Shown: piece after piece, positions 12,301 through 15,300 of the stretch
Layout: every line of letters begins with the position of its first letter
How positions within the stretch are numbered: the first letter of the stretch is position 1
Assembly (NCBI GenBank): GCA_016165875.1
Contig: JABBOT010000002.1
Span: 21,962,265-22,026,264 of the forward strand
DNA length: 64,000 bases
Reading direction: 5' to 3'
Origin: Acanthopleura granulata
Taxonomy: Eukaryota > Mollusca > Polyplacophora > Chitonida > Chitonidae
Made by a program: the position numbers and the translations under genes
Notes under the pieces: model-generated
Seen by the model: only the letters and a program-made list of their open reading frames with translations
What the model was told of the DNA's origin: nothing
Database searches by the model: none

Positions 12301-15300
12301 CACAAACACACAATCTGCGCTACTGACCTATAAACAGATGTTCAAAGACACAATCTGCGATACTGACCAATATACAGATCCACAAACACACAATGTGTGA
12401 TAATGACCAATATACAGACACACAAACACACAATCTGCGATGCTGACCAATCTACAGATACACAAACACAAAATGTGTAATATCAGCCAATGCCAATGCA
12501 TGTACAGACTACAGAGAAAATATACATCTGACTCTGGAATGTCCTCAGATATCCACATATTACTGACTGCTTTCACTTCCACATATTAACAACTCACCAC
12601 ACACAAGTTTTAAGATTCTCTGGAAAATAGAGAAAGAATTTATGTAAGACAGTCCTAGCTGGACTGAAAATTAGGTCTACTATACCTCCATGTACACAGA
12701 AGTCACAGTTGTATTTGTCCAGAGTTTCTAAAGTTGTCACATATGGGGCATCTTCTACTACCTGAAAAGATGAGTCCATTAAGAAATTCATTGTTTTCAG
12801 AAAAGATCATGGCATTTTTTTTTATCATACTGAACTTATCATAAATTTTATTACTGTGATTTTAACAGTTTTAAACATGGATGAAATTTTGTTGGTGATT
12901 AATTGGCTTGACAGTGAAGAAGATTTGTAGTATTTATGCTGCTATACAGAAGCAATAGACATTTCACATGTGTCATACATGTCAAATGATTTTAACTATA
13001 TTTTTAACCAACAAAAAAGGCTTTAGTTTGCTTTCTTTTCTCCTTTTCTTTAATGAACACTATTCTACAAGTTTGTTTCACCTAACTGTGTGATATCTGT
13101 ACATCACAGGGCCTAAACAGTTAACCACAGATAGAAGAACTAGAAAATGAATACCATAAAGTTGTCCATTACAATGACTTAACTTTCTGCATTACAAGAA
13201 GCTGCAAAAAATGATAAGTAATGCATCTGTCGGTTACCTCGTCAACCCACTTGATGGCTCGGACCATTTCGTATCTCTCTTTATCGGTGAACACTGGCGG
13301 ACCCTTATGTTTGGCTACTTCCTCTGTGAATGCAAAGGAACATAGGACACACTCTTCAGTTTATCACATGCAAGCATATTCCTGCATCGTTAACAACAAA
13401 AAATAAAACTTCTATGTCACACTGAACTACTGTATGCTTGAGGATGAATGCTGAATTCATAATTTCATCAACTGTGTCATAAAGATCTCTCCTTTCACAT
13501 GACAACACCACTACATTACATGCTGTTTCCTGGTTGAAACAACAAGTCATTCAAAATCACCTCATACCATACACAAGGTGCTGTGATGACCAAGTTGGAA
13601 TGTTCGACACTATGCAAGGCTTATGTTTTCACATCCTTGGGATGATCTGGCTAGGGACTTGAACTCAGTGGTCAAGTTGTTTACATAGTCTATCTCAGTT
13701 CAAACCAGACTTAACACTTCAGTGGCCATTCAGTGAAGATCAGAATGTGCTCCTACAATGGGTAATCCTAGATTTGTGTGTTACTACTCACCATCAGAAT
13801 GTACTCCTAAAATCTGGTAATCCCAGATTTGTGTGTTACTACTCACCATCAGAATGTACGCCTACCATTAAGTTATCCCAGATTTGTGTGTTACTACTCA
13901 CCATCAGAATGTACTCCTAAAATCTGGTAATCCCAGATTTGTGTGTTACTACTCACCATCAGAATGTACGCCTACCATTAAGTTATCCCAGATTTGTGTG
14001 TTACTACTCACCATCAGAATGTACTCCCAAAATCCGGTAATCCCAGATTTGTGTGTTACTACCCACCATCTGAATGTACGCCTACCATTAAATTATCCCA
14101 GATTTGTGTGTTACTACTCACTATCAGAATGTACTCCTAAAGTCCGGTAACCCCAGATCTGTGTGTTACTATTCATCATCAGAATGTACGCCTACCATTA
14201 AATTATCCCAGATTTGTGTGTTACTACTCACCATCAGAATGTACTCCTACAATCAGGTAATCCCAGATTTGTGTGTTACTATTCACCATCAGAATGTACG
14301 CCTACCATTAAGTTATCCCAGATTTGTGTGTTACTACTCACCATTTGAATGTACTCCTACAATCAGGTAATCCCAGATTTGTGTGTTACTATTCACCATC
14401 AGAATGTATGCCTACCATTAAGTTATCCCAGATTTGTGTGTTACTACTCACCATCAGAATGTACTCCTACCATTAAGTTATCCCAGATTTGTGTGTTACT
14501 ATTCACCATCAGAATGTACGCCTACCATTAAGTTATCCCAGATTTGTGTGTTACTACTCACCATCTGAATGTACTCCTACAATCAGGTAATCCCCCATTT
14601 GTTTAGCCTAAAAGACAATGTAAACAATCCATTACAAATCAATCATCTTAACCTCATCATGTGAATCTCACTTAAATCATCTACCTTTTTTTCAGTCTGA
14701 ACCACAAAAATAAAAGAAGTAAATCAATCATACATGTACATGTACATTTTCCCCAAAGACAATTTAGCAAATAACTAAAGATATGGAGCTTAACATCTGC
14801 TTCATACTGAATGAGTTTTGTGAGAATGTCTGTCCAGGTTTGTGCTCTTGTCAGATTTCAACTAAATAACTCACTACTGAATCTTGTGATATCAATCAAA
14901 AACAAGCATCACATTTCTGTATGAGGAATAATCTTATGAGAAAAACACATACCAGCTTACGTAGCAACATTTATTGCTCCTGGTGACTGAACTGTAAATA
15001 GGCTAAACCATTATGTATCAAAGAAAGACTAATTAATTACCTGTCTAATGGCATTGGCATGACCAAAGTGTACCATGTCAAAACTGGAAAGAGACAACAA
15101 TAGAGCATTACATTTTTGTACAGTCATACTTTTACACATTTAACGTGACAGTGTTCATTTATTCATATAAAACTGATAGTATCAAATAAGAATTTTCTCT
15201 CAAAGCAGATCTGAACTGAAACCAGACTGAGTTCAATGACAAATGCTATGTAAATTGTAATGCAGATAGAAACTAGTTCTCTGACCTAGCCGTATACATT

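Follow-up and report, generated by a model that had tools for sequence, protein, structure and literature searches.

Organization of the PCYT2 locus

The 64,000-nt window analyzed here, the whole of the stretch taken from contig JABBOT010000002.1 of the chiton Acanthopleura granulata, contains the gene for ethanolamine-phosphate cytidylyltransferase (PCYT2) and, within that gene, a tandem array of 55-bp units that runs from coding exon 3 into intron 3. The PCYT2 coding region lies on the minus strand (3385..17262), and the spliced model comprises 15 coding exons, read from 17262 to 3385, which together give 394 codons plus a stop and are open throughout. An initial model of 380 residues, which did not include the 5' part of exon 9, was 93% identical to protein P0001 of Liolophura sinensis (394 residues), in which a CTP_transf_like domain was found. 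Setting the start of exon 9 at an acceptor that restores the missing residues gave the final model of 394 codons. Liolophura, a chiton of the subfamily Acanthopleurinae, supplies the nearest protein to this model, and the protein in its database record, judged by its residues, contains the normal join between exons 3 and 4. An earlier note, made from the letters of this DNA, had named the gene PCYT2 and taken exon 3 to be real, and the full model bears out both statements.

Coding exon 3 (14562..14607, minus strand) is 46 nt long, encodes 15 residues plus one base, and is the second shortest of the 15 coding exons. It is bounded by the acceptor TTTTAG and the donor ATG/GTGAGT (14556..14564, minus strand), the first intron base being 14561. 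The last 33 nt of the exon form unit 0 of the array, which makes up about two thirds of the 1238-nt intron 3 (13324..14561, minus strand). Of 6,132 homologues found, 120 were listed, and the stretch encoded by exon 3 is present in every one of these; its Leu and the Gly that precedes VH are invariant across this set. A protein search of the genome (606.5 Mb, 87 contigs) with PCYT2 gave four matches, of which three are PCYT2's own exons and one, at 39% identity, lies on another contig; this search scores exon by exon, exon 3 is not among the three listed, and a short paralogous exon could escape it too. On these matches, PCYT2 appears to be single copy.

The array repeats the junction of exon 3 and intron 3

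Each 55-bp unit joins the final 33 nt of exon 3 to the first 22 nt of intron 3, so that the repeats span an exon-intron boundary. When the minus strand was cut in 55-nt steps from the exon 3 donor (14561/14562), the exon unit 0 was followed by 14 full units with zero slip (units 1 to 14; 13770..14539, minus strand), each made of a 33-nt part like exon 3 and a 22-nt part like the donor and start of intron 3, and all in exact register with the exon. A partial and damaged unit with a 1-nt deletion follows at the distal end (13739..13769, minus strand) and stops before the donor position, and beyond it the similarity to the junction ceases. Tandem Repeats Finder placed the array at 13739-14602 with a period of 55, 15.7 copies and 0% indels, and also reported it at a period of 110 bp (7.9 copies, 93% matches). 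The unit composition and the 14 indel-free steps described in the earlier note are confirmed. The interval that it gave, 13743..14607, holds a real array, with limits that needed adjustment: homology extends over 13739-14602, and 14607 is where the exon ends.

Across the 14 units, the exon part agrees with exon 3 at 26-32 of 33 positions. In 300 dinucleotide-shuffled introns the top ungapped match reached 22/33 (the top matches averaged 17.9). Elsewhere in the PCYT2 gene the highest match, inside the exon for the second domain of the enzyme, was also 22/33. Because the identity of the units lies above everything found in the shuffles and elsewhere in the gene, the array is the exon 3/intron 3 junction and no look-alike, and the lack of identity that the earlier note had named as fatal to its proposal is not what is found. 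When the whole genome was searched with the array as DNA, one match was returned, with only the best candidates scored. Since the exon 3 stretch occurs in 120/120 listed homologues, the exon is old, and the array most likely derives from exon 3 rather than the reverse, as the earlier note had held.

Two unit types alternate along the array

The units fall into two types, A (exon-like) and B, whose alternation produces a 110-bp dimer. The B consensus differs from the exon at six positions in the exon part, four of these differences being synonymous, and at one position in the intron part. The alternation and the dimer had been described earlier and stand, with two amendments: unit 2 is a B/A hybrid that breaks the alternation, and the distal end is the partial, A-like unit with its deletion. 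Among the intronic units, mean identity is higher at a lag of two units (52.3/55) than at a lag of one (47.0/55), which is consistent with expansion in pairs. These identities and the diverged partial end unit would also fit concerted evolution of the inner units with the boundary units left out, a trait of mirages, but units near the exon show no such divergence, units 1 and 5 being the same in sequence.

A difference between A units near to and far from the exon had been attributed to conversion or expansion working outward from the exon. At positions -24 and -19, the near A units carry the same state as every B unit, and at -19 this state is also that of the partial distal unit; the distal A variants therefore look derived. 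The gradient looks to be explained by the regional spread of a derived variant, for which conversion outward from the exon is not needed. A TCA common to the exon, unit 4 and unit 9 may reflect exchange and is the sole hint of it. The word ACAAAT in the exon (14597..14602, minus strand) recurs 55 bp further on in the intron part and is kept in 14 of 15 units. It is a possible microhomology for the first duplication, and no more than possible, since a 6-mer common to the exon and the beginning of its intron is also found for five of the 13 other PCYT2 exons.

Two sources for the B units were considered and rejected. One is that they are the fossil of an older functional exon: the distinct changes in the copies are synonymous in 6 of 15 cases overall (p=0.14), the B-type Asn occurs in 0 and the B-type Met in 1 of the 120 listed homologues, and nothing in these counts clearly points to coding constraint in the copies. 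The other is a PCYT2 paralogue, for which the genome search, with its stated blind spot for short exons, offered the 39% match beside PCYT2's own exons.

Donor sites and reading frame of the copies

GT is retained at the donor position in 13 of the 14 intronic copies, and the authentic 9-nt donor is unchanged in eight (units 2, 4, 6 and 10-14), so that the splice signal is kept in many but not all copies. The nearest decoy, in unit 1, is weakened to ATG/GTGAAT (14501..14509, minus strand), as are units 3 and 5; unit 9 reads GTGGGT, unit 8 reads ATA/GTGAGT, and the donor of unit 7 is dead (ATGAAT). Donors were scored with a matrix and with a plain duplex energy for pairing to the U1 small nuclear ribonucleoprotein; by the matrix, the authentic exon 3 donor outscored 10 of the 13 other real PCYT2 donors. 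Strong donors, the authentic one included, occur in the array at 10.9 per kb as compared to 0.46 per kb in the rest of the gene, a ~24-fold difference. In all 15 units the 10 whole exon codons are open and are then followed by TAG. The earlier description of copies that mostly carry GTGAGT or GTGAAT and keep their coding part open, and of a stop met at once on reading past the true donor, is accurate.

The array contains 53 AGs, none with a pyrimidine fraction of at least 0.69; the highest, 0.625, is level with the three weakest of the 13 true AG acceptors of PCYT2, which range from 0.62 to 0.81 with three at 0.62. As no array AG stands out by this simple pyrimidine-content test, it is unlikely that the copies serve as tandem alternative exons in their own right. 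Two further ideas were set aside. Concealment of the decoys by RNA structure was rejected on predicted local folding, in which the authentic donor (openness 0.0033) is no more open than the decoys (0.0005-0.0434). Protection by U1 against early polyadenylation was rejected because neither AATAAA nor ATTAAA occurs on the sense strand of intron 3.

Tandem arrays in the window and in the gene

The window holds 18 merged tandem arrays that cover 8.9% of its length, as compared to 5.6% in a genome sample made up of 20 stretches of 10 kb each (200 kb in all, 10 kb of it N). The PCYT2 array has nine strong donors on one strand, authentic donor included; one other array in the window has a single strong donor and 16 have none. 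Six arrays lie in the PCYT2 gene and occupy 17% of its length. With the six arrays of the gene placed at random, 95% of 20,000 trials had an exon boundary lying 20 bp or more within an array (mean 4.1 boundaries; observed, 1), and a single overlap is therefore unsurprising in itself. The arrays touch fewer exon boundaries than this simple model would give, and no array touches exons 2 (43 nt) or 7 (48 nt). A separate 40-bp tandem array (12183-12474) ends ~33 nt upstream of the PCYT2 exon 6 acceptor, and its unit, read on the sense strand, contains a T-rich stretch followed by CAG; these units are possibly acceptor-like decoys.

Comparison with known donor-bearing minisatellites

In amphioxus, minisatellites termed mirages have many copies that bear splice signals; RT-PCR suggests that regular splicing is undisturbed, array lengths vary, and the arrays have been put forward as a possible source of new introns (PMC3087553). 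The genes concerned are Adh3, the globins BflGb6 and BflGb9, and troponin C (PMC3087553, PMC3902484); the later work refers to the mirages of alcohol dehydrogenase and troponin C, and it reports imperfect mirages in PGBD5 (PMC3902484). The chiton array shares the defining anatomy of these elements and is a well-preserved mirage: the splice signal persists in many, not all, copies, turnover appears to be of the unequal-exchange style, and, as in BflGb9, it is the 3' exon boundary that is duplicated. It differs in phylum and gene and in having 14 extra units of exactly 55 bp arranged as a 110-bp dimer. The amphioxus reports also describe normal splicing, variation in length and somatic instability; the PCYT2 array is known here from the sequence of one assembly. 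No mirage minisatellite from a mollusc was found in searches of the open-licence literature, most of them general and not aimed at molluscs.

Human genes offer three further parallels. The variable-number repeat in intron 18 of ABCA7 has 25-bp units that start at the exon 18 donor (PMC5954066). An isoform that uses the next donor apparently makes up 2 +/- 1% of transcripts (the second of two figures given "respectively"), has a premature stop and is independent of repeat length, and premature-stop transcripts increased under cycloheximide (PMC5954066). In both genes the array begins at the exon's own donor and the copies bear a donor, which in the next ABCA7 unit is usable and leads to a premature stop. 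ABCA7 units begin at the donor GT, whereas those of PCYT2 additionally include 33 nt of coding exon, and the length effect reported for ABCA7, whose array varies greatly in length between individuals, is on skipping of exon 19. For IFI6 (6-16), a minisatellite with multiple splice donors has been described (Turri, Cuin and Porter 1995), and two of its downstream units reportedly serve as donors; the PCYT2 repeats likewise bear donors, whose use is reported in IFI6 and putative in the chiton. In PAH exon 11, U1 binding downstream of the natural donor enhances exon definition (PMC5933811). PCYT2 too has U1-binding sequence downstream of its authentic donor, in the form of many candidate sites as opposed to the one region near the donor that was shown to act in PAH.

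Probable origin and predicted consequences of the array

In our view the array is probably a mirage-type minisatellite that arose from exon 3 through tandem duplication. It is probably also near-neutral, as we predict that the authentic donor is still the one mainly used. The first duplication would have occurred perhaps between the two ACAAAT words 55 bp apart in exon and intron, and further units would have arisen by unequal exchange or slippage, later as A-B pairs that gave the 110-bp dimer. If any copy were used as donor, exon 3 would gain 55 nt or a multiple of it and the frame would run into GGT GAG TAG, so that every decoy is predicted to yield one identical 61-codon frame ending at the first such stop. 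Another 12 introns would remain to be spliced further downstream, and nonsense-mediated decay is the predicted fate of decoy-spliced RNA. A low, constant leak of such RNA, similar to that in ABCA7, would be expected without regulation. The amphioxus mirages and the low use of the next unit in ABCA7 are likely precedents for near-neutrality.

Several points weigh against this account. Near-neutrality is a proposal, and eight decoys equal to the authentic donor must likely be ignored for some reason, which predicted local structure does not provide. The donor side has fewer variable sites than the exon side (4/22 versus 15/33, p=0.047), and this might point to constraint at the donors, although the units are non-independent and the test deserves little weight. 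Finally, none of the 17 other window arrays holds three or more strong donors, and neither does any of the 27 minisatellites in the genome sample (period 10-200, three copies or more); repeated donors are therefore no general property of such arrays.

If the decoys are not ignored, the array might act as a dial on unproductive splicing, in which it competes for U1 and diverts a fraction of PCYT2 pre-mRNA to decoys, the stop-bearing RNA is degraded, and copy number sets output. Competition for U1 that tunes PCYT2 splicing, as the earlier note proposed, is possible. In favor of the dial, eight of the 14 decoys equal the authentic donor, the stop is met at the same place from every unit, and donors are used in the next ABCA7 unit and, reportedly, in two downstream IFI6 units. 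The full dial seems unlikely to us, as the ABCA7 unit-retention isoform does not depend on repeat length (PMC5954066), the amphioxus mirages are said to leave splicing undisturbed (PMC3087553), three of the nearest decoys are weak (units 1, 3 and 5) and that of unit 7 is dead, and the stop rides along in the copied sequence, so that its retention is no sign of selection. An extension in which U1 is distributed over nine equal donors, decoy transcripts are destroyed, and gain or loss of units by unequal exchange varies PCYT2 output between individuals (or cells), making the array a copy-number rheostat for phosphatidylethanolamine synthesis, is distinctly improbable. The array could also recruit U1 without being cleaved, aiding definition of the 46-nt exon 3. 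The shortness of that exon, the ~24-fold density of strong donors and the action of U1 downstream of the natural donor of PAH exon 11 (PMC5933811) speak for such an enhancer, which we nonetheless regard as doubtful: the exon 3 donor is already strong by these scores, exons 2 and 7 have no array touching them, and in PAH the variants are at +17 and +20, as compared to 110 nt from the authentic donor to the first full-strength decoy here.

Two readings concern the array itself. Tandem repeats are prone to misassembly, and copy number or arrangement could be wrong; distinct unit variants, a largely ordered A-B alternation and the absence of indels make such an artefact very improbable, as do the 87 scaffolds made with optical maps that are reported for what is likely this assembly (606.9 Mb; PMC7850002). 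The window is rich in repeats, and exon and array might resemble each other by chance or both stem from an unrelated satellite. This reading, to which we give next to no credence, is already refuted by identity far above that of shuffled introns, by the conservation of the exon 3 stretch across the listed homologues and by the single genome match of the array.

Identical donors behind one acceptor in a conserved gene amount to a natural experiment on donor choice among many equals. Eight decoys share the authentic 9-mer, and exclusive use of the authentic site would therefore have to depend on more than the donor sequence. Should RNA show decoys in use, the array would matter more; otherwise it is ordinary. 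It would extend mirage minisatellites beyond chordates, within the open-licence literature searched, which suggests that mirages may arise wherever minisatellites are common.

Other features

Intron 9 of PCYT2 (8571-8284, minus strand) starts with GTATCCTTT and ends with TTTTCCCTAACCATGCATAT, and the end that restores a conserved His is AT, neither AG nor AC. By consensus, this intron looks like one of the minor (U12-type) class. The 39%-identical, cytidylyltransferase-like match on another contig (L025, G000:C11:14435022-14435204) is possibly a choline-branch relative, PCYT1, a name that is our guess. As expected, a tblastn search of phage records with a fragment of PCYT2 found nothing. Elsewhere in the window, an open frame on the minus strand at 62208-63047 has a von Willebrand factor A domain (PF00092, E 7.6e-28).
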